Shown: positions 25,085 through 53,469 of the stretch, piece by piece
Layout: each line of letters opens with the position of its first letter
Numbering within the stretch: position 1 is the stretch's first letter
DNA from: Pelagicoccus sp. SDUM812003
Lineage (GTDB): Bacteria > Verrucomicrobiota > Verrucomicrobiia > Opitutales > Opitutaceae
Direction: 5' to 3'
Assembly: GCF_031127815.1 (NCBI RefSeq)
Contig: NZ_JARXHY010000002.1
Coordinates: 124,001 to 188,000, forward strand
Length of the DNA stretch: 64,000 nucleotides
Made by a program: the position numbers and the translations under genes
The notes under the pieces: model-generated
What the model saw: the letters and a program-made list of their open reading frames with translations, nothing else
The model's database searches: none
What the model was told of the DNA's origin: nothing

Positions 25085-26665
25085 ATGCAAAACTTACTCG
25101 TCAACGGACAGTGGCTCGCCGCCAAAAAACCGGAAGACAGCTTCCACGCTCGCAACCCATCCGACCGCTCGACCCTTAGCGAGCGCGAATTCCCGGTGTC
25201 CAGCTGGCAGGACATCGAAGCGATGATCGGCCACGCTTCCGAAGCCGCTCGCGTCCTCGCGAAAACACCCACCGAAGCCATCGCGTCGTTCCTGGATGAA
25301 TACGCGCGACTCATCGAAACGCGAACCGAAGAGCTGGCCAAGACCGCCCATCTGGAAACGGGCCTTCCCGTTCGTCCTCGTCTCGCCGAAGTCGAAATCC
25401 CCCGCACCGTCAATCAACTCCGTCAGGCCGCCGCCGCCGCTCGAGCGGGCGACTGGGCTCGCCCCACCATCGACACCACGGCCAACATCCGCTCGGTGCA
25501 CGGGCCGCTAGGCGGGCCAGTCGTAGTGTTCGGCCCAAACAACTTTCCTTTCGCCTACAACGGAATCGCCGGCGGTGATTTCGCGGCAGCCATCGCAGCG
25601 GGGAATCCGGTCATCGCCAAATCGCACCCGGCCCATCCCCACACCACCGAACTGCTAGCTCAGCTGGCCAATCAAGCCGTGAAAACGGCAGGGCTTCCGC
25701 AAGCCACGGTGCAGCTTTTCTATCACGTCGCGCCGGAGAACGGCAAACGTCTGGTCTCGCATCCCGACGTCGCGGCCGCCGCCTTCACCGGGAGCCGAAC
25801 AGGTGGACTCGCCCTCAAAGAGGCTGCCGACAAGGCGGGCACGCCCATCTACCTAGAGATGTCGAGCGTGAATCCGGTTTTCGTATTGCCGGGATCACTA
25901 CAGGAACGCGGCAGCGAAATCGCCGATGAGCTGCATGGCTCCTGCAACCTCGGAGCGGGCCAGTTCTGCACCAAGCCTGGTCTGGTCATCCTGCCCAGCG
26001 GGGCGAAGACCGACGAGTTCATCCAGCAGCTTAAAAACAAGTTTCAGCAAACCGCGCCAGGCGTCTTGCTCACCGAAGGCGGAGAAAAGACGGTGGCGGA
26101 GACAGTTGGCAAACTGGTCGACTCCGGAGCGGAAATCCTGGCAGGCGGCGAGCCCGCTTCGCAAACGCACTTCGGCTACCGATCGACCTTGCTGCGCGTC
26201 TCCGGAAGCCAGTTCCTGAAAAATCCCGAGCAGCTGCAAAGCGAAGCCTTCGGAGCAGTCTGCCTGCTGGTCGCTGCGGAAAGCCTCAAGCAAATGCAGG
26301 CCATCGTGACGGTTTTGGAAGGAAACCTGACCGGCTGCATCTACTCCAGCAAATCGTCCACCGACGACGAAGCCTATCAAGCGATCGCTAGCGAGCTTCG
26401 CTTCAAAGTCGGCCGCTTGCTCAACGACAAGGTGCCAACCGGCGTAGCGGTCAGTCCCGCCATGAATCACGGTGGCCCGTATCCATCGACTGGACACCCG
26501 GGATTCACAGCGGTCGGCTTCCCGGCCACAGTGATTCGTTTCAGCGCCCTGCATAGCTACGACAATGTGAGGCATGAGCGCCTGCCGCTCGCGTTGCAGG
26601 ACAAGAACCCGACTGGAAAACTGCTTCGCTACATCGACGGAGCCTGGTCCACCAAAGACCTCTAA
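25085..26665 (+). CDS. 2,5-dioxovalerate (alpha-ketoglutarate semialdehyde) dehydrogenase
   Basis: A 526-residue NAD(P)-dependent aldehyde dehydrogenase that would oxidise 2,5-dioxopentanoate to 2-oxoglutarate, the final step of the Weimberg route. The FGPNNFPFAYNGIAGGDFAA and IAKSHPAHPHT motifs are typical of this ALDH subgroup. The general-base Glu258 (YLEMSSVNP) and catalytic Cys295 (GAGQFCTKPG) are intact, and the C-terminal VNDKVPTGVAV-type segment reads LLNDKVPTGVAVSPAM. The start at 25085 follows the FAH gene by 55 bp. Confidence in the specific substrate comes from the flanking dehydratases. Confidence 0.85.
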   Translation: MQNLLVNGQWLAAKKPEDSFHARNPSDRSTLSEREFPVSSWQDIEAMIGHASEAARVLAKTPTEAIASFLDEYARLIETRTEELAKTAHLETGLPVRPRLAEVEIPRTVNQLRQAAAAARAGDWARPTIDTTANIRSVHGPLGGPVVVFGPNNFPFAYNGIAGGDFAAAIAAGNPVIAKSHPAHPHTTELLAQLANQAVKTAGLPQATVQLFYHVAPENGKRLVSHPDVAAAAFTGSRTGGLALKEAADKAGTPIYLEMSSVNPVFVLPGSLQERGSEIADELHGSCNLGAGQFCTKPGLVILPSGAKTDEFIQQLKNKFQQTAPGVLLTEGGEKTVAETVGKLVDSGAEILAGGEPASQTHFGYRSTLLRVSGSQFLKNPEQLQSEAFGAVCLLVAAESLKQMQAIVTVLEGNLTGCIYSSKSSTDDEAYQAIASELRFKVGRLLNDKVPTGVAVSPAMNHGGPYPSTGHPGFTAVGFPATVIRFSALHSYDNVRHERLPLALQDKNPTGKLLRYIDGAWSTKDL

Positions 26666-26727: not shown

Positions 26728-28728
26728 GTGCCCCAAGACTCAGCTTCGATCCGCTTTCTCCCGTCGCGAGACGCTTTGCTCAACACGCGCACCACAGGCG
26801 AAGGGCCAAGCGGAAAACTGCCCGTAACCGAAGAACAACTACGGGAGTCGCCAAGCGGCGACTTGTTTGGTCTCACGCAAAACGCGGGCATGGGCTGGCG
26901 GGCTTCGGAGATCGGGCGAGACCCTTTCCTCATCGTCAGCACATCGGGAGGCTTGCGAGCCGAGGACGGTTCGCCGATCGCCCTTGGCTACCATACGGGC
27001 CATTGGGAAATCGATCGACTGGTCAAGGAAGCGGCTCGAACCATTTCCGAGCAAGCAGGCCTGCCCTTCGCCGCGACGGTTTCCGATCCCTGCGATGGTC
27101 GCTCGCAAGGCACCACTGGCATGTTCGACAGCCTGCCCTACCGAAACGACGCCGCCATGACCATGCGACGTCTGATTCGCTCCCTGCCACGCCGCAAAGG
27201 CGTCATGGGCGTGGCCACTTGCGACAAGGGATTGCCCGCTACCTTGCTAGCTCTCGCTGGCAGTTCGAAGCTCCCTGGCATCATCGTGCCGGGAGGCGTC
27301 ACCTTGCCGGCGAAGGGGGCGGAGGACGCAGGCAAAGTCCAAACGATCGGAGCTCGCTTCACCCACGGACTCATTTCCTACGACTACGCGGCGGAAATGG
27401 GCTGCAAAGCCTGCGGCTCGCCGGGCGGCGGCTGTCAGTTTCTAGGCACCGCGGCGACAAGTCAGGTTATCTCCGAAGCCCTCGGGCTCTCGCTGCCGCA
27501 CACCGCCCTGTGCCCGTCCGGCGAGCCCGTCTGGCTGGAAATGGCTCGACGCTCCGCCTCAGCGCTGCTGCAGCTCGCCCGGCTCGACATATCCATATCT
27601 CGAATACTGACGCAGGAAGCATTCGAAAACGCCATGCTGGTCCATGCGGCCTTCGGCGGCTCCACCAATTTGCTCCTGCACATCCCCGCCATCGCCCACG
27701 CCGCTGGATTGAAACCTCCTGTCGTAGAGGATTGGATACGCGTCAATCGGGCCACTCCTCGTCTGGTCGATGCCTTGCCCAACGGACCGCGTAACCATCC
27801 AACCGTGCAGGTCTACATGGCGGGCGGCGTGCCCGAGGTGATGCTGCATCTGCGAGAAATGGGCCTGCTGCATTTGGATCTCCTTACCGTGACCGGAAAA
27901 ACCGTGGGCGAGAATCTCGATTTGTGGGAGCGAAGCGAGTCCCGAAAGATCGCTCGTGAGCGCTTGCAGAAGCTCGACGGCGTGGATCCGGACGATGTCA
28001 TCTTCTCGGCCGAAGTCGCCCGAAAGTCCGGATACACATCGGCCCTGGTCTTCCCTACCGGAAACCTCGCCCCGCAGGGTTCAGTCATCAAAGCGACTTC
28101 GATCGACCCCTCCGTAGTGGACTCGGACCAATGCTACCGTTTCCGCGGTCAAGCCCGGGTGTTTTCGAGCGAGCGCGATGCCATTCGAGCCATAAAAGCT
28201 CAGGACGAAAGCGCCCTGCGCCCTGGCCAGGCCATCGTGCTCGCGGGATGCGGGCCGGCGGGCACCGGCATGGAGGAGACCTACCAGCTGACCTCCGCTC
28301 TGAAACACCTGCCCTGGGGCAATCGGATCCCAGTGCTGACCGACGCCCGCTTCTCTGGCGTGTCCACCGGAGCCTGCATCGGACACATCGGTCCGGAAGC
28401 CTTGGCGGGCGGTCCCATCGGCAAGCTGCTCGATGGCGACTTCGTCGAAATCCTAGTGGATCGCCTTCAGCTCACCGGACGCATCGACTTCGTAGGCGAA
28501 GATCCAGAGGCTCCTCTGGATCCAGAGCAAGCGGCGCGCATTCTGGAACGACGACCGATCAACCCGGCCATCGCCGCCCACCCGCAGCTGCCCGACGACA
28601 CGCGGCTCTGGGCCGCGTTGCAGGACGCCAGCGGAGGAACCTGGAGCGGATCGGTCTACGATGTTGATAAAATCATCGCCACCTTGCAGGCTGGAAAAGT
28701 CGCCTTGTCACGCTCCTCGCAGGCCTAG
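26728..28728 (+). CDS. yjhG: D-xylonate dehydratase, YjhG/YagF type
   Basis: A 666-residue IlvD/Edd-superfamily dehydratase with a GTG start. Its sequence follows E. coli YjhG/YagF closely along the whole length: GPSGKLPVTEEQL, SGDLFGLTQNAGMGW, VSDPCDGRSQGTTGMFDSLPYRND, VATCDKGLPATLLAL, CKACGSPGGGCQFLGTAATSQV, AFGGSTNLLLHIPAIAHAAG, GPAGTGMEETYQ, DARFSGVSTGACIGHIGPEALAGGP and SGGTWSGSVYDVDKI. The conserved cysteines would hold the iron-sulfur cluster. It would turn D-xylonate into 2-keto-3-deoxy-D-xylonate, the substrate of the FAH-type enzyme two genes upstream. The gap to the ALDH gene is 62 bp, consistent with one operon. Confidence 0.9.
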   Translation: MPQDSASIRFLPSRDALLNTRTTGEGPSGKLPVTEEQLRESPSGDLFGLTQNAGMGWRASEIGRDPFLIVSTSGGLRAEDGSPIALGYHTGHWEIDRLVKEAARTISEQAGLPFAATVSDPCDGRSQGTTGMFDSLPYRNDAAMTMRRLIRSLPRRKGVMGVATCDKGLPATLLALAGSSKLPGIIVPGGVTLPAKGAEDAGKVQTIGARFTHGLISYDYAAEMGCKACGSPGGGCQFLGTAATSQVISEALGLSLPHTALCPSGEPVWLEMARRSASALLQLARLDISISRILTQEAFENAMLVHAAFGGSTNLLLHIPAIAHAAGLKPPVVEDWIRVNRATPRLVDALPNGPRNHPTVQVYMAGGVPEVMLHLREMGLLHLDLLTVTGKTVGENLDLWERSESRKIARERLQKLDGVDPDDVIFSAEVARKSGYTSALVFPTGNLAPQGSVIKATSIDPSVVDSDQCYRFRGQARVFSSERDAIRAIKAQDESALRPGQAIVLAGCGPAGTGMEETYQLTSALKHLPWGNRIPVLTDARFSGVSTGACIGHIGPEALAGGPIGKLLDGDFVEILVDRLQLTGRIDFVGEDPEAPLDPEQAARILERRPINPAIAAHPQLPDDTRLWAALQDASGGTWSGSVYDVDKIIATLQAGKVALSRSSQA

Positions 28729-28954
28729 CCCTTCCCGGGCATCGATCAGCCCTCGCCCGAAGACGCTCGGAAAACCGATCTTGGGATTCGCAATTCTGAT
28801 ACCCGCACACATGATTTCTAATCGTCGCGCCTCACTAGGAGTCAACGTGTAATCGCTCTTCGGCGATTTTCCTCGAATCTAACCGCTCGTAGGCTATCCG
28901 CATAGCACTTCGCCTGCTGAAGATTGGCGATTGGCAGCAATCTTTCAACGTCAC

Positions 28955-30022
28955 ATGAAACTCGGTCTAGGACTCTACAAACACATGCTTACGAGCGACA
29001 ACTTCCGTTTCGCTCGCCAGGCGGGCGCCACGCACATCGTGGCCCATTTCGTCGATTACTTTCGAGGAAGCGCTCACTCGGACACGGACGACCAGCCGAC
29101 CGGCGACGACTGGGGATGGGGCTTGGCAGGCGACGCGGAGCGGCTTTGGACCTTGGAGGACATGGTTTCTCTGCGCAAGGAAGTGGAGGCCCACGGTCTG
29201 ACGCTGGAAGCCATCGAGAACTTCGACCCGGCCCACTGGCACGACATCCTCCTGGACGGGCCGAAACGCCCCCTGCACATCGAAAACGTGAAGACCATCC
29301 TGCGTCGCATGGGCGAAGCGGGCATCCCAGTGATGGGCTACAATTTTTCCATCGCGGGCGTGGCCGGCCGCACCACCGGTCCCTACGCTCGTGGCGAAGC
29401 TCCTTCCGTCGGCATGGAGGGACCTTACGACAAGCCGATGCATAACGGCATGGTTTGGAACATGATCTACGATCCCGACGCTCCCGAGGGCACGGTGCCT
29501 TCCGCCACCCACGATCAGCTATGGGACCGTCTGCAACGTTTCCTCGACGAGGTTCTGCCCGTCGCGGAGGAGGCTGGCGTGACGCTGGCAGCGCATCCGG
29601 ACGACCCGCCGATGCCGACGGTCCGACAACAGCCGCGCCTCGTCTACCAGCCGAGCCTGTACCAGAAGCTGATCGACTTGAATCCAAGCCAGGCCAACAA
29701 GCTGGAATTCTGCATCGGCTCACTCGCCGAGATGACCGAGGGCGACATCTATGAAACCATCGACACCTACTCCGCTCAGAATCGCTTGGGCTACGTGCAC
29801 TTTCGAAACGTGCGCGGCAAGGTGCCGACCTACAAGGAAACCTTCATCGACGATGGCGACATCGACATGATCAAGGCTCTGGAAATCCTGAAACGGAACC
29901 AGTTCGATGGCGTGCTGATTCCTGACCACTGCCCGTCCATGTCCTGCTCCGCTCCCTGGCACGCTGGCATGGCCTACGCTATGGGCTACATGAAAGCAGC
30001 TCTCAAAATCCTCGGTTGCTAA
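28955..30022 (+). CDS. uxuA: Mannonate dehydratase-like protein (UxuA family)
   Basis: A 355-residue TIM-barrel protein of the UxuA family, which dehydrates D-mannonate to 2-keto-3-deoxy-gluconate in glucuronate breakdown. It has MKLGLGLYKHMLTSDNF at the start, YNFSIAGVAGRT, LAAHPDDPP (metal-binding region), LEFCIGSLAEM, LGYVHFRNVRG and DGVLIPDHCP. The ATG at 28955 is preferred to 28931 because it gives this compact start. It follows the xylonate dehydratase by 226 bp and precedes an SDR by 49 bp. Its location beside pentonate genes suggests a joint sugar-acid module, though substrates other than mannonate are possible. Confidence 0.82.
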   Translation: MKLGLGLYKHMLTSDNFRFARQAGATHIVAHFVDYFRGSAHSDTDDQPTGDDWGWGLAGDAERLWTLEDMVSLRKEVEAHGLTLEAIENFDPAHWHDILLDGPKRPLHIENVKTILRRMGEAGIPVMGYNFSIAGVAGRTTGPYARGEAPSVGMEGPYDKPMHNGMVWNMIYDPDAPEGTVPSATHDQLWDRLQRFLDEVLPVAEEAGVTLAAHPDDPPMPTVRQQPRLVYQPSLYQKLIDLNPSQANKLEFCIGSLAEMTEGDIYETIDTYSAQNRLGYVHFRNVRGKVPTYKETFIDDGDIDMIKALEILKRNQFDGVLIPDHCPSMSCSAPWHAGMAYAMGYMKAALKILGC

Positions 30023-30071: not shown

Positions 30072-30836
30072 ATGCGTTTTCCACAAATATTCTCTCTCGA
30101 AGGCGAAACCGCTCTCATCACAGGCGGCGGCACCGGCATCGGACAGGCCATCGCCCAATGCATGTACGAAGCGGGGGCTACGGTCGCTCTCGTGGGCCGA
30201 CGCGAAGAAGAGCTTTCCCGCGCGGTGAGCGAACTGGGCGAACGAGCCCACTACTTCGTGCACGACATCACGGAGATGGATCAGGCCGACCGACTGGCTA
30301 CACGCGTGGAAGGAAAGCTCGGCCCCATCACCTGCCTAGTCAACAACGCTGGCAAGCACCTCAAGAAGGCCGCCCTGGAAACCAGCACCGACGAGTTTCT
30401 CGCCGTTCTCAACACCAACGTCATCGGCACCCACGCCCTCATCAAGGCCATCGCGCCCGGCATGGTCGAGCGCCAGAAGGGCAGCATTCTCTTCACCGCG
30501 TCCATGGCTTCGCTGTTCGGCATCCCACAGGTCATCGCCTACAGCGCCGCCAAAAGCGCCCACCTCGGCATGGTGCGTTCCTTGTCCACGGAGCTCTCGC
30601 CGAATGGAGTGAGAGTCAACGCCATCGCTCCAGGATGGATCGAGACCGAGATGTCTCGCAAAGCCTTGGACAACGATCAGGCCCGCAAGGACAAGATCCT
30701 CGGCCGCACGCCGATGCACAAGCTTGGCCAGCCGAGCGACGTGGGCTGGGCAGCGGTCTATCTGGCCTCTCCGGCAGCCGCCTTCATCACCGGCACCATT
30801 CTTCCCGTGGACGGCGGAGCGAGCATCGGCTTCTAG
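30072..30836 (+). CDS. SDR oxidoreductase, candidate fructuronate reductase/gluconate 5-dehydrogenase type
   Basis: A 254-residue classical SDR with TGGGTGIG (residues about 17-24), NNAG, the catalytic Ser (TASMAS), YSAAK, and the Asn-x-Ile-x-Pro-Gly after it (NAIAPGWIETEM), ending TGTILPVDGGASIGF. It resembles gluconate 5-dehydrogenase-like and SDR-type mannonate oxidoreductase proteins. Its close placement after the UxuA-like gene suggests interconversion of fructuronate and mannonate, which would feed that enzyme. It could instead oxidise another aldonate or sugar. A strong inverted repeat follows. Confidence 0.75.
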   Translation: MRFPQIFSLEGETALITGGGTGIGQAIAQCMYEAGATVALVGRREEELSRAVSELGERAHYFVHDITEMDQADRLATRVEGKLGPITCLVNNAGKHLKKAALETSTDEFLAVLNTNVIGTHALIKAIAPGMVERQKGSILFTASMASLFGIPQVIAYSAAKSAHLGMVRSLSTELSPNGVRVNAIAPGWIETEMSRKALDNDQARKDKILGRTPMHKLGQPSDVGWAAVYLASPAAAFITGTILPVDGGASIGF

Positions 30837-30872: not shown

Positions 30873-30910
30873 AACCCATTTTCGGTTCAACGTATAACCG
30901 AAAATGGGTT
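30873..30910. terminator. 15-bp perfect inverted repeat after SDR gene
   Basis: AACCCATTTTCGGTT (30873-30887) and AACCGAAAATGGGTT (30896-30910) are perfect reverse complements around an 8-base loop. A run of nine T's lies upstream at 30860-30868 rather than downstream, so it is not a textbook terminator for the plus strand. It may still stop transcription between the sugar-acid and one-carbon clusters, or be a two-fold operator. Confidence 0.5.
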
Positions 30911-31111: not shown

Positions 31112-32158
31112 ATGAGACCCGAACAGTGGGAAATCTTCAAACGCGCCGCCCGCGGCGAGAAAATGGACAAAATCCCCATGGCGATGATCGTGGACAGCCC
31201 CTGGATCCCGGGCTACTACGGCATCAAGCACATGGACTACTATCTCGATCCGGAGCTTTGGTTCAAAACCAACTTGCGCCTGCACGAGGAGTTTCCCGAC
31301 ATCATCTTCATCCCGTCCTGGTGGGTTGAATACGGCATGGCAGCCGAACCCTCGGCGCTCGGATCGAAAATCAAGTTCTGGCAGGACAACACGCCCTCCG
31401 AGTACCACACCCTCTACCACGTGGAGGACATCGAGAAGTTTCCCGAATACGAGGTGGAAAACGACGCCTTCATGGCCATGACCCTGCACCGCATTCGCAT
31501 GCACCAGCCGCGCATCCTCGACGCAGGCTACATCACCCCCATCGTCACCTCCCGCGGCCCCCTCTGCACAGCTGGCTTCGTGCGCGGCACCACCGAGTTC
31601 ATGATCGACATCGCGGAAAACGGCAAGTGGGCCCACAAGCTGATCGATCTCTGCACCAACCTCATCATCGATTGGCTCAAGGCCCAGCAAAAGGCCATGG
31701 GCGACTGCGTGGAAGGCATCTTCATACTGGACGACATAGTGGGCTTCGTGAACGAAGACCACTACATGGAGTTCGCCCACCCCTACCTGAAGCGCATCAA
31801 CGACGCCTTTCCGGACGATTTCGTAAAGATCTACCACAACGACGCCTCTATCGAAGCCTGCCTCGAACACCTGCCCGACACCGGCTTCAACGTGCTCAAC
31901 TGGGGCAAGCAAACCGAAATCGCCGACGTCAAGGACCGCATCGGCGACCGCATGGTGCTGATGGGGAACGTCAATCCGCTGGAGATCGGCGTACGCGGCG
32001 ATCCCGAAGAGGTCTTCGACGCCACCATGGACGTGCTCGAAGACTCCGAAGGCGAAAACATCATCCTCTCCGTTGGCGGCGGCACCTCGCCCGGCATGCC
32101 GAAAGAAAACATCAAAGCCATGCTCGACGCCCTCCAGGAATACAACGAGGACCGATAG
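31112..32158 (+). CDS. UroD-fold methyltransferase (MtaA/CmuA-like)
   Basis: A 348-residue protein with the uroporphyrinogen-decarboxylase fold used by corrinoid methyltransferases such as MtaA, MtbA and the N-terminal half of CmuA. It moves, or is expected to move, a methyl group to or from a corrinoid protein, and the next gene encodes one. Recognisable stretches include FIPSWWVEYGMAAEP, TSRGPLCTAGFVRGTTEFM and the barrel end LSVGGGTSPGMPKENIKAM. Where MtaA-type enzymes have a zinc-binding His-x-Cys, this protein has His242-Asn-Asp244 (YHNDASIEAC), with Cys250 nearby. It starts a cluster of five one-carbon genes. True heme synthesis (HemE) is unlikely given the context. The methyl donor is unknown. 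Confidence 0.8.
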   Translation: MRPEQWEIFKRAARGEKMDKIPMAMIVDSPWIPGYYGIKHMDYYLDPELWFKTNLRLHEEFPDIIFIPSWWVEYGMAAEPSALGSKIKFWQDNTPSEYHTLYHVEDIEKFPEYEVENDAFMAMTLHRIRMHQPRILDAGYITPIVTSRGPLCTAGFVRGTTEFMIDIAENGKWAHKLIDLCTNLIIDWLKAQQKAMGDCVEGIFILDDIVGFVNEDHYMEFAHPYLKRINDAFPDDFVKIYHNDASIEACLEHLPDTGFNVLNWGKQTEIADVKDRIGDRMVLMGNVNPLEIGVRGDPEEVFDATMDVLEDSEGENIILSVGGGTSPGMPKENIKAMLDALQEYNEDR

Positions 32159-32238
32159 GGCCTATCCGTTCCGAATAGCGCAAACCGTATCCACCTTCTC
32201 ACGACTCCACCTTCACCATTCAGCATTCCGCCCTCCCC

Positions 32239-32892
32239 GTGCCAGACTACGCCCAGATGAATCAATACCTCTACGAAGGCAATGCCGCCGAAGTGGAGAA
32301 GATGACCAAAGACGCCCTGGCCGAAGGGCGCACCCCGCAGGAGATCCTCACCGAAGGTCTCATCGCCGGCATGGCGGTGGTCGGAGAGGATTTTAAGTAC
32401 AATATCCTCTACGTGCCGGAAGTGCTCATCGCAGCCCGCGCCATGAAAGCCGGCATGGGCGTGCTCAAGCCCCTCCTGGCCGCTCGAGACGACGCGGCCA
32501 TCGATGCCGACAGAGCGCCCGTCCTGCTGATGGGCACCGTGCGCGGCGACCTGCACGACATCGGCAAGAATCTCGTCTGCATGATGGCCGAAGGCGCCGG
32601 CTTCGAAGTGCACGACATCGGAGTCGACCAGTCGGTGGAAAAGTTCATGGCGGCGGCGGACAAATGCAAACCCCAGATCATCGGCATGTCTGCCCTGCTC
32701 ACCACCACCATGACCTACATGAAAACCGTCATCGACGGCTTCGAGGAAGCGGGACGCACCGACGTCAGTTTCGCCATCGGCGGCGCTCCGATTTCCCAGA
32801 TGTTCGCCGACGAAATCGGAGCCGACGGCTATGGCGCTGACGCTTCGGCGGCGGTGGAACTCTTTCTGAAACTGGTCGGACACATCGACTAG
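32239..32892 (+). CDS. Corrinoid (methyl-cobalamin) carrier protein
   Basis: A 217-residue corrinoid protein of the MtaC/MtbC/MetH-module type. The N-terminal helical cap (EVEKMTKDALAEGRTPQEILTEGLIAGM, residues about 17-45) is followed by the cobalamin-binding Rossmann-like domain with DLHDIGKN, in which His106 is the lower axial ligand, then IGMSALLTTTM and FAIGGAPIS. It carries the methyl group between the UroD-like enzyme and the pterin-dependent methyltransferase encoded downstream. The start is GTG at 32239. The 80-bp gap from the previous gene suggests co-transcription. Confidence 0.9.
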   Translation: MPDYAQMNQYLYEGNAAEVEKMTKDALAEGRTPQEILTEGLIAGMAVVGEDFKYNILYVPEVLIAARAMKAGMGVLKPLLAARDDAAIDADRAPVLLMGTVRGDLHDIGKNLVCMMAEGAGFEVHDIGVDQSVEKFMAAADKCKPQIIGMSALLTTTMTYMKTVIDGFEEAGRTDVSFAIGGAPISQMFADEIGADGYGADASAAVELFLKLVGHID

Positions 32893-33004
32893 GCCTCGCG
32901 CTTCCATCGCGGCGCCAGAGCCCAGACGGCGTGCCGACACGAGACGCCGCATCGGCCTTTCGTATCCACTTTCCATACACAAACCGCCGACCTTTTCACA
33001 CCCT

Positions 33005-33259
33005 ATGGCCCACTACCAAATACTCTACTGGCAGGACATTCCCACCCAGGTGAAAGCGTGGGACGAGTTTGACGAAGCGAAAGCGCAGCTCGACCCGACC
33101 TTTATGAAACGTGTCGACGCCAGGGCTCAGAAGGAAGGCAAGACGGATTCCGCCAGCTACCTCGGAGCCTTCAAATGGTCGGAACCCCAGGAGCGCCCGG
33201 GCGAGGCCGACGACGTGGCTGACGAAATCAAAGAGGAACTCGAAGCGAAACTTCTATAA
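33005..33259 (+). CDS. Small PF13769-type ('virulence factor') protein of one-carbon clusters
   Basis: An 84-residue protein beginning AHYQILYWQDIPTQVKAWD and ending with an acidic helix (EQ/QERPGEADDVADEIKEELEAKL). This matches the small family labelled 'virulence factor' (PF13769 from memory), a misleading name: members often sit beside MetF/MetV and corrinoid methyltransferase genes, as this one does. The role is not known; a partner of the methylene-THF reductase or corrinoid protein is a reasonable guess. It lies between the corrinoid-protein gene and the MetF-MetV fusion. Confidence 0.7.
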   Translation: MAHYQILYWQDIPTQVKAWDEFDEAKAQLDPTFMKRVDARAQKEGKTDSASYLGAFKWSEPQERPGEADDVADEIKEELEAKLL

Positions 33260-33267
33260 CAAGCCTT

Positions 33268-33337
33268 CCCACGAATTACGCGAATTCCCACCAATTTCTT
33301 TTCAGCGTCATTCGTGAGGATTCGAGCAATTCGTGGG
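33268..33337. repeat. Intergenic inverted repeat with CCCACGAATT ends
   Basis: CCCACGAATT (33268-33277) and AATTCGTGGG (33328-33337) form the ends of a 70-bp element with further ACGAATT/GAATT-type sub-repeats inside. The 3' end reads TTCGAGCAATTCGT, which recurs in the element at 35944-35986. It overlaps the GTG at 33333, which argues for the downstream ATG as the start of the next gene. Confidence 0.6.
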
Positions 33338-33347
33338 CAAAACTAAA

Positions 33348-34880
33348 ATGCGATCTCTCCGCGAAAAGCTCCATGAATCCACCGACTTTCTCACCGGGGT
33401 CGAGCTCGTTTCCATTCGCGGAACCATGGCCGCCAAAAGCGCCCTCAAAGCCCGACGTTTCGCCCACGAACTCGTCGAGTGCGATCGCGTCGACTGGATT
33501 TCCATCACCGACAACGCAGGAGGAAACCCGCAGCTGGCGCCCCACTCCCTTGGCAAGCCCATCCTCTACGCGGGCAAGGAAGTGGTGATCCACCTCACCT
33601 GCAAGGACCTCAACCGCAACGGCCTCGAATCCGAAGCCTGGGCCTTGCACAGCGAAGGATTTCAAAACATTCTCGCTATGACCGGCGACTATCCGGTCGC
33701 GGGAAACGACGGGCTGGCCAAACCGGTCTTCGACATCGATTCGGTCGGCCTGATCGCTATGCTCAGCAAGATGAACCGCGGCTTCGACCATACGGAGCTG
33801 GTCGATCCGAGCCACGAGCCAAAGTACGAGAAAACCGCTTTCAATATCGGTGCCGTCACCACCAACTTCAAGCGGCTCGAAGGCGAGCTCGTCCCGCAGT
33901 ACCTGAAGCTACGCCGCAAGACCCAGGCCGGCGCATCCTTCATCATCAACCAGATCGGCTACGACTCGCGAAAGATCCATGAGCTCAGAGTCTACATGGA
34001 TCATCATGGCATGAAACGAATCCCCCTGATCGGAAACGTCTATCTGCTCAACCCCCGCGTAGCCAAGCTTTTCAACTCCCAGCGAATACCGGGAGTCGTC
34101 GTATCCGATAAGCTCCTACAACTTTGTCAAAAGCAGGCGGACTCGCCGGACAAGGGAAAAGCCTTCTTTCTCGAGCTCGCGGCCAAGCAAGTCGCCATCT
34201 ACCGCGGACTTGGATACCGAGGGGCTTACATAGGCGGAGCGCACGACGCGGAAACGATCCGTCGCGCCCTCGACATCGAAAAGAGCTTCTCTGACGATGA
34301 TTGGAAACGCTTCGCCAGGGAGATATGCTTCTCCCAGCCAGGCGAGTATTTCCACTATCAGGAGGATTCCTCCACAGGGCTGGCCGACCCCGAAGCGCCG
34401 ACCGCTCCAACGCCAAAGTCGTCGCCAAGTTTCCACTACAGCCTATCCAGGTGGATGCACGATCACGTCTTCGCCCCGGAAACGACTTTCGCGAGGCTCG
34501 GACGAAAAGCCTGCGCCAACGCCAAGGACCCCGCCCAAGGCCCCGCTCCGCTTCGCGTCCTCGAGCACGCGTCCAAGGCGATGCTCTACCGTTGCCGCGA
34601 CTGCGGCGACTGCTCCCTGCCGGATATCGCCTACCTGTGCCCCGAATCCCAGTGCGCCAAGAACCAACGCAACGGCCCTTGCGGCGGCACGCGCGACGGA
34701 CGATGCGAGGTCGATGGCTACGGCGACTGCATCTGGCTGAGGGCTCACGAGCGCCTGAAGGCGGCCGGAAACGTTGATTCGCTGCTCACCCATCGCGCCA
34801 TGGTGCAGAACCAGGGACTTCGTCACACCTCCGCCTGGGCCAACAACTGGTTGAAGCGCGACCATCACGCGAAACCGTAG
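33348..34880 (+). CDS. metF: Methylenetetrahydrofolate reductase fused to MetV-like zinc/cysteine domain
   Basis: A 510-residue protein. The N-terminal two thirds form a MetF-type barrel (LTGVELVSIRG, LTCKDLNRNGLESEAWALHSEGFQNILAMTGDYP, GASFIINQIGYD, IPLIGNVYLL), the flavin enzyme that interconverts 5-methyl- and 5,10-methylene-THF. The C-terminal part (about residues 395-480) is rich in cysteines (CRDCGDCSLP, CPESQCAKNQRNGPCGGTRDGRCE, DCIW), as in MetV, the partner subunit of MetF in acetogens and in fused forms. In this cluster it could oxidise methyl-THF produced from methyl-corrinoid. The ATG at 33348 is preferred to GTG 33333, which falls in a repeat. Confidence 0.87.
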   Translation: MRSLREKLHESTDFLTGVELVSIRGTMAAKSALKARRFAHELVECDRVDWISITDNAGGNPQLAPHSLGKPILYAGKEVVIHLTCKDLNRNGLESEAWALHSEGFQNILAMTGDYPVAGNDGLAKPVFDIDSVGLIAMLSKMNRGFDHTELVDPSHEPKYEKTAFNIGAVTTNFKRLEGELVPQYLKLRRKTQAGASFIINQIGYDSRKIHELRVYMDHHGMKRIPLIGNVYLLNPRVAKLFNSQRIPGVVVSDKLLQLCQKQADSPDKGKAFFLELAAKQVAIYRGLGYRGAYIGGAHDAETIRRALDIEKSFSDDDWKRFAREICFSQPGEYFHYQEDSSTGLADPEAPTAPTPKSSPSFHYSLSRWMHDHVFAPETTFARLGRKACANAKDPAQGPAPLRVLEHASKAMLYRCRDCGDCSLPDIAYLCPESQCAKNQRNGPCGGTRDGRCEVDGYGDCIWLRAHERLKAAGNVDSLLTHRAMVQNQGLRHTSAWANNWLKRDHHAKP

Positions 34881-34958
34881 CCCGTATCCACCTTTCACTG
34901 TCACTTCGTCACACCTCCCCTAAACCTGTCAACTCCACCTGCTAGAACGCTGTTTCCC

Positions 34959-35912
34959 ATGATCTCAACCAAACAGAAACTCCACGTCATCGGCGAATTG
35001 ATGAACAACTCCTACGCTCGCGCTCGACGCGCCTTCAAAAGCCGAGATCTGGAAGCGTTTCAGCGGCTCGCCCAAGGACAGTCCGAACTCGGAGCCGCAT
35101 TTCTTACCCTCAACATAGATGGGACGCAGCGTATCCAAGTAAAACTACAGGAGATGCTGGACTTTCTCCCCACTCTCATTCCGGCTATCCAGCAAGCCTG
35201 CGACACTCCGATCAGTTTCGACAACCCCTCGATCGAATACCACAAGGTCGCCCTCGCCCACTACGATCGCAGCCTCAGCGGAAAACCCATCCTCAACTCC
35301 CTCGCCGCTTCGCGCGAAAACCTCGATGAAATGATCGACCTGGTGAAAGACTACGACACCAAAGCCATCGTCATGGCCTCGGAAAAATTCGTAGACGGCG
35401 GCGGAGCCCAGTGCCTCAATCCGCTGGATTCCTACGAGGCCGCCAAGCGATTCGTGGAAATGCTGGTGGAACGTGCGGACCGCTCCACGGACGACATCAT
35501 CATCGACACCGGACTTGCCCCTGTCGGCGCCGACACCTACGGCTTGGTGAATATCGGCCTCGACGCCATGCAGCTCATTTCCAACGACCCGGATATGAAG
35601 GGCGTGCACATGATGGTAGGCCTGTCCAACTTTTCCTTCGGCACCCCGAAACACATGCGCGAGAAACTGGAAGGCGCCTACCTGACTCTCGCCATGCAGC
35701 GTGGGCTCGACTTCGCTCTGGCCAATCCCGAAAAATCCCCCGCGCCCCTACCTCCCGAGGATCCCATCGTGGCCGGCCTGCAAAACGCGCTCGACCAAGG
35801 CCGCCCTCGCGACGGCGAATCCCAGGAAAGCGCCGGCTTCCGACAGGCGGAAGCGATCCTAGCCCTTTGCGCCCAGCAGGATGATGACGACGATTGGGAC
35901 GACTGGGACTAG
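34959..35912 (+). CDS. Methyl-THF:corrinoid methyltransferase (pterin-binding)
   Basis: A 317-residue DHPS-like TIM barrel of the MeTr/AcsE/CmuB group, which transfers a methyl group between a corrinoid protein and tetrahydrofolate. Motifs: VIGELMNNSYARARRAF, FLTLNIDG, ISFDNPSIEYHKVAL, KPILNSLAASRENLDEMI, IIIDTGLAPVGAD and MMVGLSNFSFGTPKHMRE, the last containing the pterin-contacting Asn. The extreme C terminus is a run of Asp and Trp (DDDDDWDDWD) not needed by the fold. It completes the corrinoid relay begun by the UroD-like and corrinoid-protein genes. Confidence 0.87.
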   Translation: MISTKQKLHVIGELMNNSYARARRAFKSRDLEAFQRLAQGQSELGAAFLTLNIDGTQRIQVKLQEMLDFLPTLIPAIQQACDTPISFDNPSIEYHKVALAHYDRSLSGKPILNSLAASRENLDEMIDLVKDYDTKAIVMASEKFVDGGGAQCLNPLDSYEAAKRFVEMLVERADRSTDDIIIDTGLAPVGADTYGLVNIGLDAMQLISNDPDMKGVHMMVGLSNFSFGTPKHMREKLEGAYLTLAMQRGLDFALANPEKSPAPLPPEDPIVAGLQNALDQGRPRDGESQESAGFRQAEAILALCAQQDDDDDWDDWD

Positions 35913-36014: not shown

Positions 36015-37286
36015 ATTCACGCTTCATCATCCTCCCTTTCAAAGCAGAACGCCTGGCTTCGCGTCGGCACTCTCATCGACGGCGTATCCTCCTCTCCACT
36101 ACGCGACGCCCATCTCGTCTACAACGATAGCGAGATCCTCTACGTCGGCGCCACCGCGCCTCCTGCCAGGCTCGTCGTCGATCGCTCTATCCCCGATCGA
36201 GAGCTTCCTCGGCACACGATTCTCCCGGGCCTGATCGAATCGCACGCCCACTTGTTCCTTGAAGGAGCGGAGCTGGACTTCGAAAAACGCAAAGCCTACC
36301 TGAAGCAATCTCCCACCATGCTGCTCGCAAAGGCGATCCTGCGCCTCGAAAAGCTGCTGAAACTCGGTATCACCGCGTATCGAGACGCTGGCGACAAGGA
36401 CGGCGTAGGCATCGCCCTGAGCAAGCTCTACCGTTCCCCGAGCCATCCAGCGATGCCTTATGTTGAAAGCCCCGGGCCCGCCATTCACCACCGAGGACGC
36501 TACGGATCCTTCATGGCCGAACCGATCGAAGATCATGCCCATCCCGCTAGTGTGGTCGAACACCGAATCAAGCTAGGGGCAGATCGTATCAAACTTATCC
36601 CTACAGGAATCATCAACTTCAAGAAAGGCCTCGTCACAGCGAAACCTCAGATGGACGCGCAAGAAGTCAAGGCCTTCACCGAAGCGGCCAAGGAGCGAGG
36701 GAAGCAGACCTTCGCCCACGCGTCAGGCTCGGATGGGATCCAAAACGCTATCGATGGCGGCGTGGACTCTGTCGAGCACGGCTTCTTCATCACCGACGAG
36801 CAGCTCGCCCGGATGCGAGATCTCGACATCGCATGGACGCCGACCTTCGCTCCCGTTCAGGTCCAAGTGGACGAAGCGGAACGCATGGGATGGGACCAAA
36901 CCGTCGTTTCCCATTTGCGGCGCATCCTCGAAAGCCATTCGCGCAGCCTGGCGAAGGCGCAGGCACGAGGCGTCAAAATCGTCGCCGGCAGCGACGCTGG
37001 CAGCTGCGGCGTGGGTCATGGCACGCATTTCCTCTCCGAGCTGGAGCTGATGGAGCAGGCCGGCCTCAGTCCGCTTCAGGTCATCAACTCGGCCACTGGC
37101 GTACCGGCTTCCCGACTCGGCTTCAGCGAGCGTTTCGGCAGTTTGACGGCGGGCTGCAAGCCACGCTTCATCCTCACCGAGCACGATCCGCTGGCCTGCG
37201 TTTCCCAGCTAAGGCTGCCCAAGATCACTCACTTCGATGGCCGCGAATTCGTCGGATCGGAGTCCGACGACATCAGCGGGCTCTAG
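36015..37286 (+). CDS. Amidohydrolase (imidazolonepropionase-like) with no canonical start codon
   Basis: A metal-dependent amidohydrolase. Metal ligands are intact: HAH in LPGLIESHAHLF (36243-36251), a Lys in GADRIKLIPTG, His in TFAHASGSDG and VEHGFFITDE, and Asp in VAGSDAGSCGVGHGT. The usual N-terminal beta segment is also readable in this frame (LRVGTLIDGVSSSPLRDAHLVYNDSEILYVGA, from about 36057). However, after the in-frame stop at 36006 there is no ATG, GTG or TTG before the HAH motif; the TTG at 36252 would delete the first metal ligands. The ATT at 36015 is marked as a placeholder start. Either a rare start is used, or the gene has lost its 5' end. Substrate unknown; it follows the one-carbon genes. 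Confidence 0.6.
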   Translation: MHASSSSLSKQNAWLRVGTLIDGVSSSPLRDAHLVYNDSEILYVGATAPPARLVVDRSIPDRELPRHTILPGLIESHAHLFLEGAELDFEKRKAYLKQSPTMLLAKAILRLEKLLKLGITAYRDAGDKDGVGIALSKLYRSPSHPAMPYVESPGPAIHHRGRYGSFMAEPIEDHAHPASVVEHRIKLGADRIKLIPTGIINFKKGLVTAKPQMDAQEVKAFTEAAKERGKQTFAHASGSDGIQNAIDGGVDSVEHGFFITDEQLARMRDLDIAWTPTFAPVQVQVDEAERMGWDQTVVSHLRRILESHSRSLAKAQARGVKIVAGSDAGSCGVGHGTHFLSELELMEQAGLSPLQVINSATGVPASRLGFSERFGSLTAGCKPRFILTEHDPLACVSQLRLPKITHFDGREFVGSESDDISGL

Positions 37287-42435: not shown

Positions 42436-45400
42436 TTGCCAACTTCAACTCAAAGCTCGCCCTCGGTTCGACGGTGCCTCGCCCTGCTCGCAAGCGCTTG
42501 CATCGCCTTTTTCGCGAGCGCCCAAGCGGAGCGTGACTCCTTCCTCGGCAGCCCCTACTTCTCCGTATACGAACCGACCTCGATCGGGAGCCAGCACGGC
42601 CTCAACCACATTTCCATCGATCCGTTCGGTCGCATCCTAGTAGCCAGCGGGGCCAACGTGTTGGCCTTCGACGGCAACGTCTGGCTCACCTACACGCCCA
42701 AGGAATTGAGCGTGAGCCAAGAGAGCTTCTCGATCCACACCATCGGGCTGGCTCCGAACGGCAAACTGTACGCGAGCACCACCACCGGCATCCACCAGTT
42801 GAGCTTCGCCGCGGGTAAGCGCTACGAGCTCCGGTCCATCGCCGATGTCGAACAGCACCATCACCAAGGGGTATCCACCTTGCTCGAGCTCGTGACGGAT
42901 GGCGACATCTTCTACTTCTACGGGCAAGGATCCATCGCGGAGCTCGATACCGCCACCGAATCGGTAAGGTTCGTGCAGGAGACGTCCAGTAGCATCGCCA
43001 GCGCCGCCTTGCACCAGAACAGCCTCTACGCCTTCGGCGTCGATGGAAAGGCTTTGAAACGAGAGGGAAATCAATGGAGAGCCTTAGGCAGCGGAGAGAT
43101 ATTGCGCTACCGCGAAGGCATACGGTCCGCCGAGTCCTGGCCGGGAGTCGGCCTGCTGCTGGGACCTGACATCAGCGGATTGCAGCGCCTCGACGAGGAA
43201 GCCGGCATCGTGCCGTGGCCCAGCGAGATCGACCAGCTGGAAACGCACCGCATCCTGGACATGGAGCCGATCTCAGACCAAGTGCTCGCCCTCTCGGTGG
43301 CGAACAACGGCATCTTCCTAATCAACCGAAAGGGCGAAGTCATCCAGTGCCTCAGTCGCAGCATCGACTATCGTTTCGGCCAGGCAAACCACCTGATCCA
43401 CGCAGGGAACGGCGTAGTTTGGGCCATCTCCGAATCGTCCGTGATCCGAGTCGACTTTCTCAAGCCGCTCACGGATATCTCAAAACTACTCCCCTACGCC
43501 ACCACCTACCCGCGCATCTTCTGGCATCGCGATCGCATGCATGTGGTTTCCGACTCGAAGCTCGTAGGCGCCATCACCTCCCAAGGCGGGGCCTTGCTGG
43601 GATTCGAGCGTCTGGCAAGCGAGCTCCCTAGCAGGATCCTCAATGCGATTTCGGTGGAGGACGGCATCCTTTGCGCCACGGTGGACGGCGTGTTTCTCCT
43701 TCGAGACGACCAACGCGCCCAGCAAATAGCCGGCGTGGCCGAGTCGACCTTGGTAGTGCGGCATCCTGACTACCCGAACCAAGCGGTAGCCATCGGAGGC
43801 CAAGAGTATCGGCTGCTGAAACGGGAGGATGGGCAATGGAGGGCCACTTCGTTTTCACGTCCCTCACGTGGGTTGAGCTACGACGCGGTTCTGGACAAGG
43901 ACGGCGTGATTTGGCTCGAACTCGGGGTGGGAGCCGTGGCCCGATTGGAGATGCGTCCGGACTCCTTCGACGTTCGGCGGCTCGGAGCAGCCGAGGGGCT
44001 GGCGAACTATTGGGTCAACATTTGGCAACTGGGCGAGCGCACCCTTTTCGGAGTGGGAAGCGACATGGAGTATCAAGTATGGGATGCCAACACCCAAGCG
44101 TTCACACCGGTGAAGGAAAAGATAGCGAGCGGAATCTTCAGAGACTATCCTGGCGTCACCCGCCCCGTTCTCGACTCTGAATCAAGATTGTGGGTACCGA
44201 CCAACTCGAACCACGTGATCCTTAGGATGGAGGAAGACGGCTCGATATCTCGCGATACCGAAACGCTCGCCTCCATACAAAACGAGCGATTGCTCTGGGT
44301 CAGAGCGCGCGGCGAAGGGATTTGGCTCACCGGCAAGAACAAGATCTTCCACTTCAATACCGCATACGAAAAGCCGCTGCCGAACCTTCCTGAAACCTCG
44401 ATTGTGAGTATCGAAGATCCCAACACGGACACCCTTCTCTTCGACGGGCTTTCCGACCAACTCAGCGACGAACGCGCCATCGCCTACCGAAACAACAGTC
44501 TGCTGATTCATGCCGCCACTCCCACCATCGCCTACCCCCACGACATCTCGCACCAGTACCGCATCCTGGGGAAGTCTCGCTACTGGCATCGTTTCTCCAC
44601 GCCGGAAAGCTTGGCATTGACCAACCTGCTCGAAGGCGACTATCGCATTCAGATCCGCGCCGTATCCAACAATACATACGGCGCCCCAACGGAGTTCTCG
44701 TTCACCATCTTCCCTCCGTTCTACAGATCAGCGTACGCGTACTTTCTCTATCTTCTCACCTTCGGAATCCTGCTGTACATCGGAGTGCGCTTCATCCGGA
44801 CTCGAGCCGAGCGACGCAACAAGTTGCTCCAATCCGTAGTCGACCTGCGCACGAGAGAGCTGCGCGTGGCCAACGACGAGCTGAAGACGCTCGTTCGCAA
44901 GGCCGAATCCGCGACCATCGCCAAAACCGCTTTCCTTCACAACGTGAGTCACGAGATGAGAACGCCGCTCAACGGAATCATCGGCCCTTCCACCCTATTG
45001 CTTAGATCCGCCAAGGACGCCGACAGCAGGACCCTGGCTAAACTCGCCAAGGAATCAGGAGAGAGACTGGCAGGCATTATCGAGAAGCTGCTTCTTTTCG
45101 CTGAAGCCGAGGGCAACGACCTAAATTCGGATGTATCCTCTTTCCATATACAGGAAACTCTATCGGAACTGCTCTCGGAATTCGAGGAAATCGCCCAGCA
45201 AAAGCAGCTCGAACTTCAGCTTCGCATCGAACCGAGCACGCCCCGATACTGGTTCGGCCAATCAGCGAAAGTTCGTCAGGCTCTTCGCATCCTGCTGGAG
45301 AACGCGCTTAAGTTCACCGAATCCGGCTGCGTGAACCTCTCCGCCCAGAGGATAACGAACATCAAGGAAGGCGAGTTTCTGGTGATCGAAGTTTCGGATA

Positions 45401-45639
45401 CGGGAATCGGAATCAAAAAAGAGCTGTTGAAATCTCTGTTCGAACCCTTTCAACAGGGCCGAGACAAGGGAGGCAACAAGCACAGCGGCACTGGCATCGG
45501 TCTTGCAATCTGCCAGCAGCTGGTGCTTTCTATGAACGGCCAGATCGAAGTCGAAAGCGAGGAGGAAAACGGAGCGTTGTTTCGTATCACCCTACCACAA
45601 AACGTCTTATCCAAAAACAAGCGACAGAGCGCGATCTGA
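42436..45639 (+). CDS. Sensor histidine kinase with periplasmic two-component-regulator propeller
   Basis: A 1067-residue membrane histidine kinase. A signal peptide (LALLASACIAFFASAQA) follows a TTG start; no better upstream start is in frame. The periplasmic region (about 45-700) is a beta-propeller of the two-component-regulator type with a Y_Y_Y-like Ig domain (YRILGKSRYWHRFS, LLEGDYRIQIRAVSN). One membrane helix (about 757-780: YFLYLLTFGILLYIGVRFI) leads to a HisKA domain with His839 in NVSHEMRTPLNG and a HATPase_c domain (ENALKFTESG, VSDTGIGIKKELL, GTGIGLAICQQLV). There is no receiver or DNA-binding domain, unlike hybrid two-component systems of Bacteroides. It heads a unit with GH105 and a glycosyltransferase, so it may sense a polysaccharide fragment. 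Confidence 0.85.
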   Translation: MPTSTQSSPSVRRCLALLASACIAFFASAQAERDSFLGSPYFSVYEPTSIGSQHGLNHISIDPFGRILVASGANVLAFDGNVWLTYTPKELSVSQESFSIHTIGLAPNGKLYASTTTGIHQLSFAAGKRYELRSIADVEQHHHQGVSTLLELVTDGDIFYFYGQGSIAELDTATESVRFVQETSSSIASAALHQNSLYAFGVDGKALKREGNQWRALGSGEILRYREGIRSAESWPGVGLLLGPDISGLQRLDEEAGIVPWPSEIDQLETHRILDMEPISDQVLALSVANNGIFLINRKGEVIQCLSRSIDYRFGQANHLIHAGNGVVWAISESSVIRVDFLKPLTDISKLLPYATTYPRIFWHRDRMHVVSDSKLVGAITSQGGALLGFERLASELPSRILNAISVEDGILCATVDGVFLLRDDQRAQQIAGVAESTLVVRHPDYPNQAVAIGGQEYRLLKREDGQWRATSFSRPSRGLSYDAVLDKDGVIWLELGVGAVARLEMRPDSFDVRRLGAAEGLANYWVNIWQLGERTLFGVGSDMEYQVWDANTQAFTPVKEKIASGIFRDYPGVTRPVLDSESRLWVPTNSNHVILRMEEDGSISRDTETLASIQNERLLWVRARGEGIWLTGKNKIFHFNTAYEKPLPNLPETSIVSIEDPNTDTLLFDGLSDQLSDERAIAYRNNSLLIHAATPTIAYPHDISHQYRILGKSRYWHRFSTPESLALTNLLEGDYRIQIRAVSNNTYGAPTEFSFTIFPPFYRSAYAYFLYLLTFGILLYIGVRFIRTRAERRNKLLQSVVDLRTRELRVANDELKTLVRKAESATIAKTAFLHNVSHEMRTPLNGIIGPSTLLLRSAKDADSRTLAKLAKESGERLAGIIEKLLLFAEAEGNDLNSDVSSFHIQETLSELLSEFEEIAQQKQLELQLRIEPSTPRYWFGQSAKVRQALRILLENALKFTESGCVNLSAQRITNIKEGEFLVIEVSDTGIGIKKELLKSLFEPFQQGRDKGGNKHSGTGIGLAICQQLVLSMNGQIEVESEEENGALFRITLPQNVLSKNKRQSAI

Positions 45640-45668
45640 CCCGCCACACGAATCGATTCCCCCCAAAT

Positions 45669-46739: not shown

Positions 46740-46743
46740 AGGC

Positions 46744-47964: not shown

Positions 47965-48380
47965 GTTGAAAAACGGTCAGATGCCGGGTGGATTCTAAGA
48001 TGATATGACGGGGATCTAAGATCCGTACACTCTGCACATATCAGACAGGAAATATCAGCTTAGATACACCTGGAAATCTACTATTCGATTGACTTGGAGT
48101 AAGAAAATCCATGGCCTGATTTATCGTTTATTTAGCATTTTTCTCATACTCCAAATGGAGCATTTGAATAGCAATTAAGCACCTGCATCACCCCAATCCA
48201 CTGATCCCAAAACCGACTCTCTACCTGACGCCTGATTCATTGGAAGCGGGCTGAAAGAAAGAGCGCTGATCGTTACCCGATACCCCCTTTTGAAAATGAA
48301 AGCCAGTCCAGCAGGCCGGGGTGATTTAAGGTTATATCTTCCGAATAAGCTTTTCACTAGTCAGACACACAAACACGAAC
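47965..48380 (+). promoter_or_regulatory. AT-rich region upstream of first TonB receptor
   Basis: No gene is visible in this 416-bp AT-rich gap. TGATTTATCG occurs at 48117-48126 and recurs twice before the second receptor. A possible -10 box TATATC lies at 48333-48338, followed at 48361-48376 by TCAGACACACAAACAC, a leader shared base for base with the second receptor gene. There is no obvious sigma-70 -35 box. Confidence 0.5.
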
Positions 48381-51956: not shown

Positions 51957-51986
51957 GCGGCCCAAAGCGTATTCGAAAACCCTTTC

Positions 51987-52016
51987 AAAGACCCCTCGCG
52001 CGAGGGGTCTTTTTTC
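51987..52016 (+). terminator. Rho-independent terminator after TonB receptor 1
   Basis: AAAGACCCCTCG and CGAGGGGTCTTT form a strong stem (51987-52013) that runs directly into a T-run ending at 52016. It is 30 bp after the receptor stop codon. Confidence 0.85.
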
Positions 52017-52183
52017 TTCGATCGCTTCAGCTAAAAAGCCCAGACAATCAAGCGCCACGATTGACAGGATTCCAATCCTCCAAGATTCTCGATTCACGAT
52101 CGTCAGCCTGATACAACAAGGATGCGCCTGAATCGCACCATCTCCTACCCCCATTATACAAACGAATTCGCTGAACCTTCGTC

Positions 52184-53461: not shown

Positions 53462-53469
53462 ATTTTTGT

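Follow-up and report, generated by a model that had tools for sequence, protein, structure and literature searches.

A corrinoid cluster and its probable methyl donor

A 64,000-nucleotide stretch of the Pelagicoccus sp. SDUM812003 genome (contig NZ_JARXHY010000002.1, positions 124,001 to 188,000; hereafter the window) carries five adjacent genes that look like the parts of a B12-dependent methyl-transfer system, and it raises the question of which compound donates the methyl group. The original prediction, made from the letters of the window, had placed these genes in one direction and had listed methyl ethers of sugars, methylated sulfur or nitrogen compounds, and halomethanes as candidate donors. 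Pfam searches with ten window proteins bore out the gene calls: all five core genes lie where they had been placed, on the + strand, with matches above the curated cut-offs. They encode a UroD-fold methyltransferase, the proposed first methyltransferase (MT1), at 31112..32158 (PF01208, 144 bits; cut-off 23.9); a corrinoid protein, Cor, at 32239..32892, with a GTG start (B12-binding_2, PF02607, and B12-binding, PF02310); a small PF13769 protein, to which we assign no role, at 33005..33259 (58 bits; cut-off 25); a MetF-MetV fusion, proposed to oxidize methyl-tetrahydrofolate (methyl-THF), at 33333..34880 (MTHFR, PF02219, 56 bits; PF12225, 88 bits); and a predicted methyl-THF:corrinoid methyltransferase (MT2) at 34959..35912 (Pterin_bind, PF00809, 57 bits; cut-off 25.5).

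From the observed genes, domains, synteny and co-occurrence we infer a substrate, a direction and each of the reactions proposed below. We consider it probable that the module uses a corrinoid to O-demethylate 4-O-methyl-D-glucuronate derived from glucuronoxylan, or an early product of it (4-O-methyl-fructuronate or 3-O-methyl-mannonate). Judged by domain content, it is of the MT1/corrinoid/MT2/activator kind, with a UroD-fold MT1, a separate B12 protein, a pterin-binding MT2 and an ASKHA activator all present in the genome. The original prediction had seen no third, substrate-specific methyltransferase; none is needed, since in such systems the UroD-fold protein is itself the substrate-specific one.

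The UroD-fold protein and its partners

The UroD-fold protein scored 98 bits on the MtaA/CmuA model and 63 bits on the HemE model (cut-off 303), far under the cut-offs of both, and it lacks the HemE motif MRQAGR. A tree of 23 rows set the four HemE rows apart as one supported group (100/99); the UroD clade and its more distant paralogues came together in a second (100/98). The long branches of CmuA and of the Acetoanaerobium and Subdoligranulum proteins make their placement unsure, and the tree was used only for the HemE split. A separate protein of the genome, with 402 bits on PF01208, groups with HemE. A HemE or other porphyrin role was therefore rejected on model score, missing motif and tree split, and the grouping with HemE that had been set beforehand as a refutation of the original prediction did not occur. 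The AlphaFold2 model of the protein (pLDDT 90.4) found its best PDB match in 4AY7, the M. mazei methylcobalamin:coenzyme M methyltransferase (TM 0.81/0.83), with HemE structures next.

Zinc methyltransferases of the MtaA/CmuA type bind their metal through an HxC...C motif. In our alignment HxC...GC is kept in CmuA and in one Acetoanaerobium and one Subdoligranulum protein. The UroD clade and its paralogues, 16 rows in all, uniformly read HND...GGG, so that the His is retained and both Cys are replaced. H242-N243-D244 is invariant in 26/26 aligned rows, as are, among others, D28, W31, E73, E79, R148, D207 and D208. Because HND...GGG stands in place of HxC...GC, zinc binding by this clade, if it occurs, must on the evidence of the alignment use other ligands. 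CdmB, likewise of the UroD fold, was solved without metal (PMC13222342). A second UroD-like subfamily in other Verrucomicrobiota (loci L087-L091) is 34-37% identical to the protein and has the HNDA motif in common with it; tblastn gave no corrinoid gene match in the 3-4 kb fetched around its members.

Cor is 52% identical to a Paracoccus corrinoid protein and 38% identical to the C-terminal part of CmuA, and in the PDB it matches 4JGI, labeled uncharacterized, which we take to be part of the D. hafniense O-demethylase. Genome-wide, B12-binding_2 domains were found only in Cor and in a MetH-sized protein (C1:304420, open frame of 1305 aa). The MetF-MetV fusion matches the separate MetF (26%) and MetV (32%) of Paracoccus methylovorus. 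The best PDB matches of MT2 are methyl-THF methyltransferases of methionine synthase, plus 4O0Q, labeled DHPS and presumably the D. hafniense O-demethylase MT2.

Reactivation and one-carbon genes elsewhere in the genome

The genome that contains the window (5.75 Mb, 88 contigs, 97.5% complete) supplies further parts. No ASKHA protein for corrinoid reactivation had been visible to the original prediction, which is correct for the window but not for the genome: a RACo-type ASKHA protein, its sole PF14574 match (236 bits), is encoded on contig C12 (83919-84617) in a frame that holds Fer2 (2Fe-2S), RACo-middle and RACo-C domains. Lack of a reactivator was accordingly rejected. On the same strand of this 18-kb stretch of C12 (L095) are genes for a homocysteine methyltransferase (HMT) and for two proteins that we call P419 and P110. 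A glycine-cleavage T protein, GcvT, is encoded there as well (11818-12921), on the same strand and some 1.5 kb past P110, from which one other open reading frame separates it.

Scans of three P419 and two P110 members against Pfam returned nothing, even with the limit relaxed to E<=10, and P419 had no believable PDB match by sequence. The AlphaFold2 model of P419 is of moderate quality (pLDDT 79.7, pTM 0.56; residues 218-261 poor). Against 1J6R, the T. maritima MetH activation domain, it gave a TM of 0.84 by target length and 0.41 by its own length, and all 15 of its PDB matches at E<=0.001 are MetH structures with the reactivation domain. The model thus suggests that the P419 fold is partly that of the MetH reactivation domain. 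Among the folate enzymes that the original prediction had proposed to look for, FolD and PurU (366 bits; cut-off 286) were found and Fhs was not found in the genome. With these and the reactivator in place, methyl transfer through a corrinoid to THF and oxidation through MetF-MetV, as first proposed, appears to be the best reading of the cluster.

Conservation of the cluster

Searching the UroD-fold protein against genome contigs returned 74 loci, 65-91% identical and mostly in metagenome-assembled genomes, under seven phylum-level names as given in the records: Verrucomicrobia, Acidobacteria, Bacteroidota, KSB1, Ignavibacteria, Gemmatimonadota and Phycisphaerae. Neighbors were counted by tblastn at bit-score thresholds of our own setting, and many contigs end inside the flanks, so that the counts are lower bounds. 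Cor was near UroD in 66/74 loci and the PF13769 protein in 58/74 (all on the UroD strand); P419, RACo, P110 and HMT followed with 53, 51, 48 and 45 of the 74, respectively.

The closest named record by UroD protein, Verrucomicrobiae bacterium DG1235 (91% identical; L003), has the order aldehyde dehydrogenase, YjhG, UxuA, SDR, UroD, Cor, PF13769, MetF-MetV, MT2 and amidohydrolase, and then P110, P419 and RACo on the opposite strand. These last three genes are close behind the cluster in DG1235 and on C12 in the window genome. A row in Gemmatirosa kalamazoonensis (Gemmatimonadota) reads SDR-UxuA-UroD-Cor-PF13769-RACo-P419-HMT-P110, with identities of 68% for UroD, 56% for UxuA and 38% for SDR (to the query SDR). 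Because the same order recurs in other genomes, the order of the cluster is not chance. The Gemmatirosa row (L118) sits on the 1.1-Mb plasmid 1, typed as non-mobilizable, and its horizontal spread is possible.

Among six relatives from the window genome's family (G091, G274, G099, G143, G271 and G010), GH115, UxuA, RACo, P419, P110, UroD, Cor and PF13769 recur; HMT and SDR are found in most of them and MetF-MetV, MT2 and the amidohydrolase in some. UxuA is near UroD in 6/6, and SDR copies 63-70% identical are near it in 4/6 (G091, G274, G099 and G143). The stretches fetched from G010 and G143 held no Cor, PF13769, MetF-MetV or MT2, and that from G271 no HMT or SDR. In G143 the UroD sequence lies inside a 610-aa open frame (L106 13817-15815) that adjoins a homocysteine methyltransferase gene, with no close corrinoid gene; this is possibly a longer or fused form.

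A sixth gene, for a HutI-type amidohydrolase at about 36015..37286 on the + strand (PF01979, 73 bits on 36252-37283), belongs with the five core genes; it was near UroD in 11/74 loci and shared the strand of UroD in 8 of these. Its frame is open from 36009 and offers its first ATG, GTG or TTG only at 36252 (TTG). The SHAHLF metal motif is encoded upstream of this codon, with no ATG, GTG or TTG ahead of the motif; translation may begin at an ATT at 36015. The DG1235 gene has an in-frame ATT at a similar place (L003:12974), among other ATT codons. In cmu clusters, too, metF has a HutI-type amidohydrolase gene next to it (PMC3621897); in the chloromethane cluster L119 (10397-12600) we found one directly before metF. 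A common role in methyl-THF oxidation, in cmu clusters and here, is possible, and we speculate that methenyl-THF might be its substrate, with the imidazolinium ring as the site of opening.

Association with alpha-glucuronidases

The alpha-glucuronidases GH67 and GH115 release 4-O-methyl-glucuronic acid from xylan. Near UroD we counted GH67 in 19/74 loci, GH115 in 6/74, and any of GH67, GH115 or UxuA in 28/74, the GH67 and GH115 identities having been checked by Pfam on three members. About 0.3 GH67 would be expected in the flanks at 1.5 genes per 5.5 Mb, although the loci are related and give no clean P value. Among the candidate donors first listed, the neighborhoods thus favor methyl ethers of sugars.

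Genome content gave a second measure. Across 288 genomes sampled evenly from one phylum, a UroD orthologue (at least 69% identical) was present in 7, all of the window's own family; five other matches at E<=1e-60, 34-36% identical, were set apart from this count. Full-length GH67 was found in 7/7 carriers versus 19/281 others (26/288 in total; Fisher 2e-8), and adding six weak matches (E<=0.001) brought the total to 32/288 and P to 1e-7. Within the family alone, GH67 was in 7/7 carriers versus 5/18 others (P 0.0016). For GH115 the figures were 7/7 versus 50/281 in the phylum sample and 7/7 versus 7/18 in the family (P 0.007). In the six relatives, a GH115 domain is about 5 kb from UroD in G143, 7 in G099, 8 in G274, 9 in G010, 21 in G091 and 38 kb in G271, and GH67 is within 33 kb of UroD in 4/6. 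Among further carriers across phyla, 37/44 hold GH67 (E<=0.001) versus 32/288 of the phylum sample, which is the only background for this comparison; the 44 were a hand-made choice among the 74, intended to cover a wide spread and fixed ahead of the outcome, and 30 of the 74 stand outside the count.

A proposed route for the methyl group

In the window, the genes directly ahead of the module encode a UxuA-like D-mannonate dehydratase (28931..30022, + strand; PF03786, 166 bits; PRK03906 of NCBIfam, 139 bits, below the cut-off of 191) and an SDR oxidoreductase that is a candidate fructuronate/mannonate-type reductase (30072..30836, + strand; PF13561, 204 bits). UxuA was near UroD in 7/74 loci, always on the same strand. 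Set against the glucuronate pathway (GH67/GH115, UxuC, UxuB and UxuA), UxuA and SDR adjoin the module, with UxuC (C19:66071, 672 bits), GH67 (C5:190012) and three GH115 (on C2, C5 and C19) elsewhere in the genome. In the textbook pathway, the oxygen at position 4 of glucuronate (O4) ends up as O3 of mannonate, and this is the one removed by mannonate dehydratase (UxuA). A demethylase beside UxuA is chemically sensible, because a methyl group on mannonate O3 would block or divert the UxuA step. We know of no step for the 4-O-methyl group in that pathway.

We therefore propose the following sequence of events. GH67 and GH115 would free the methylated uronic acid, and the UroD-fold protein would bind it and set its methyl group before the Co(I) of Cor, giving methyl-Co(III) and a free hydroxyl. 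MT2 would hand the methyl group to THF; MetF-MetV would oxidize the methyl-THF, and FolD and PurU would carry the carbon to formate. Alternatively HMT, which accompanies the module in many relatives and is on C12 here, could make methionine. Oxidized cobalt would be restored by RACo with the stand-alone MetH-reactivation-like protein, and the demethylated acid would proceed through UxuC, SDR and UxuA to 2-keto-3-deoxygluconate. Since UxuA expels mannonate O3, the former glucuronate O4, the methyl group would have to leave first.

More tentatively, and as a possibility that we rate somewhat below even, the system as a whole may be a dedicated and widespread B12-dependent demethylase that acts on an aliphatic sugar ether. 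In it, a UroD clade lacking the zinc triad would activate the methyl ether of 4-O-methylglucuronate or 3-O-methyl-mannonate, the methyl group would be split between folate oxidation and methionine, and RACo and the MetH-type protein would rescue the cobalt. To our knowledge, RACo and a stand-alone MetH-type reactivation protein have not been described as a pair. Each part belongs to a kind already described; what appears new is the proposed substrate, along with the enzyme clade and the pairing for reactivation.

The acidic side group of xylan in hardwood is usually 4-O-methylglucuronate, and the methyl flow through it in soils, peat and coastal water is therefore very large. We found no 4-O-methylglucuronate demethylase, corrinoid or other, in the open-license papers searched, and papers outside this set may hold one. 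If the proposal is true, the module would be a genetic marker of glucuronoxylan methyl flow under seven phylum-level names, and the breakdown of hemicellulose would be tied to the need for B12 and to the supply of methionine. It would also be a case of Co(I) chemistry on an alkyl ether that is not activated, and the conserved P419 and P110 would acquire roles.

Weighing the proposal and its alternatives

Several observations weigh against this assignment. Known O-demethylases act on phenolate leaving groups, whereas the alkyl methyl ether proposed here has a harder leaving group, and the UroD clade does not have the zinc triad common in such enzymes. MetF-MetV and MT2 were near UroD in only 16/74 and 14/74 loci, and G010 and G143 lack a close corrinoid partner, their best candidates being 46-48% identical and elsewhere. 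No GH67, GH115 or UxuA was seen in 46/74 loci within flanks that are often truncated. GH67 is more than 700 kb away in G271 and on another contig in G143, and the window genome has no linked alpha-glucuronidase, the nearest on the contig being about 145 kb off and GH67 on another contig. Seven of the 44 hand-picked carriers showed no GH67, the background is a single phylum, and five family members own GH67 without UroD; the module is therefore not needed to own a glucuronidase. Finally, the YjhG and aldehyde dehydrogenase genes upstream suit pentose acids, and a hairpin at 30873..30910 may separate UxuA-SDR from UroD.

The same parts could instead serve an O-demethylase for methoxylated aromatics of the Mtv/Odm/Vdm kind, acting on a lignin-type methyl ether met with xylan in lignocellulose. 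The matches of MT2 to 4O0Q and of Cor to 4JGI, if these are indeed D. hafniense O-demethylase parts, speak for this idea. So does the layout: the MtvB/OdmB/VdmB systems and Cdm combine a UroD-fold MT1, a corrinoid protein, MT2 and an activating enzyme (PMC13222342). The module is like them in this four-part logic, in its pterin-binding MT2 and in its ASKHA activator; it differs in an MT1 that keeps the His but has neither Cys of HxC...C, in the proposed aliphatic sugar ether donor, and in the company of MetF-MetV, HMT, P419 and P110. Its repeated neighbors are glucuronate enzymes, and we regard an aromatic donor as unlikely. Quite unlikely, too, is that the genes form a split methionine synthase of HMT, MT2, Cor and the MetH-type reactivation protein, with UroD secondary or regulatory. 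The frequency of HMT, P419 and RACo near UroD suits such a synthase, as does the partial likeness of the P419 model to the MetH reactivation domain, and there is a precedent in R. pomeroyi, where MtgC and MtgD take part both in making methionine and in glycine betaine demethylation (PMC12478193). In both that system (MtgBCDE) and the present one, a small corrinoid protein would be shared by THF-linked demethylation and homocysteine methylation, with a RamA-type activator and a MetF paralogue. They differ in MT1, which is a PF06253 (MttB-like) protein there and a PF01208 UroD-fold protein here (PF06253 was not reported among the ten window proteins scanned), and in having DUF1638 there and a MetH-type protein beside RACo here. 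The genome has its own MetH-sized B12 protein, however, and a methionine synthase leaves the glucuronidase link unexplained. The idea may be true in part, with methionine as one outlet. We think that methionine is a second outlet and not the main purpose, because HMT, MT2, Cor and, by fold only, P419 correspond as separate proteins to the functional units of MetH, as in the R. pomeroyi split synthase.

Use of chloromethane or another halomethane is very improbable. The likeness to chloromethane utilization drawn in the original prediction holds for the logic of cmuA, cmuB, metF, purU and folD, that is, methyl transfer to THF and MetF oxidation, and for the amidohydrolase beside metF; CdmB is moreover of the UroD fold (PMC13222342). 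A close tie does not hold. CmuA fuses the UroD and corrinoid domains that are two separate genes here, the UroD-fold protein is 22.6% identical to it over 195 residues, no BLAST match at E<=1 joins MT2 and CmuB, and the metal motif HxC...C of CmuA is not kept. On these grounds a Cmu-type system (CmuA, CmuB, MetF2, HutI, PurU and FolD) was rejected, and the alpha-glucuronidase context also speaks against a halomethane. Lastly, the UxuA-like enzyme might itself expel methanol from 3-O-methyl-mannonate, leaving the UroD module to serve another plant-biomass methyl donor, for example a different methylated sugar. UxuA attacks exactly the O3 position of mannonate, and the sub-threshold score of the protein here suggests that it may be a variant; the frequent alpha-glucuronidases of UroD carriers would remain unexplained, and we hold this route to be improbable. 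The demethylation of 4-O-methylglucuronate or its two pathway derivatives by the corrinoid module is the reading that we prefer.

Other features of the window

Upstream of UxuA on the + strand lie genes for an aldehyde dehydrogenase (25085..26665; PF00171, 170 bits), whose DG1235 copy is in the same position and 66% identical, and for a YjhG/YagF-type D-xylonate dehydratase (26728..28728; TIGR03432, 1051 bits; cut-off 808). Membership of either in the module is uncertain, the latter being on the pentose side; YjhG at 300 bits or more was near UroD in 1/74 loci, that of DG1235. The hairpin noted above, a terminator-like 15-bp inverted repeat on the + strand, precedes UroD and may split transcription units, although terminator-like sites in the region number 4 against a shuffle average of 9 and are not significant as a class. 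Promoter-like sites were likewise fewer than in shuffles (1 versus 2.6), and Rfam gave no cobalamin, SAM or other riboswitch at gathering scores in the window, L095, L003 or L118. A candidate dispersed intergenic repeat had 5 matches versus 1.8 expected, a number reached by 3/100 shuffles. Farther downstream, 42436-59757 encodes a sensor kinase (HisKA, HATPase_c and a weak Y_Y_Y), a GH88 family protein (45669-46739) and TonB-dependent receptor plugs at 48381-51956 and 56002-59757, and is perhaps another uronic-acid polysaccharide locus.

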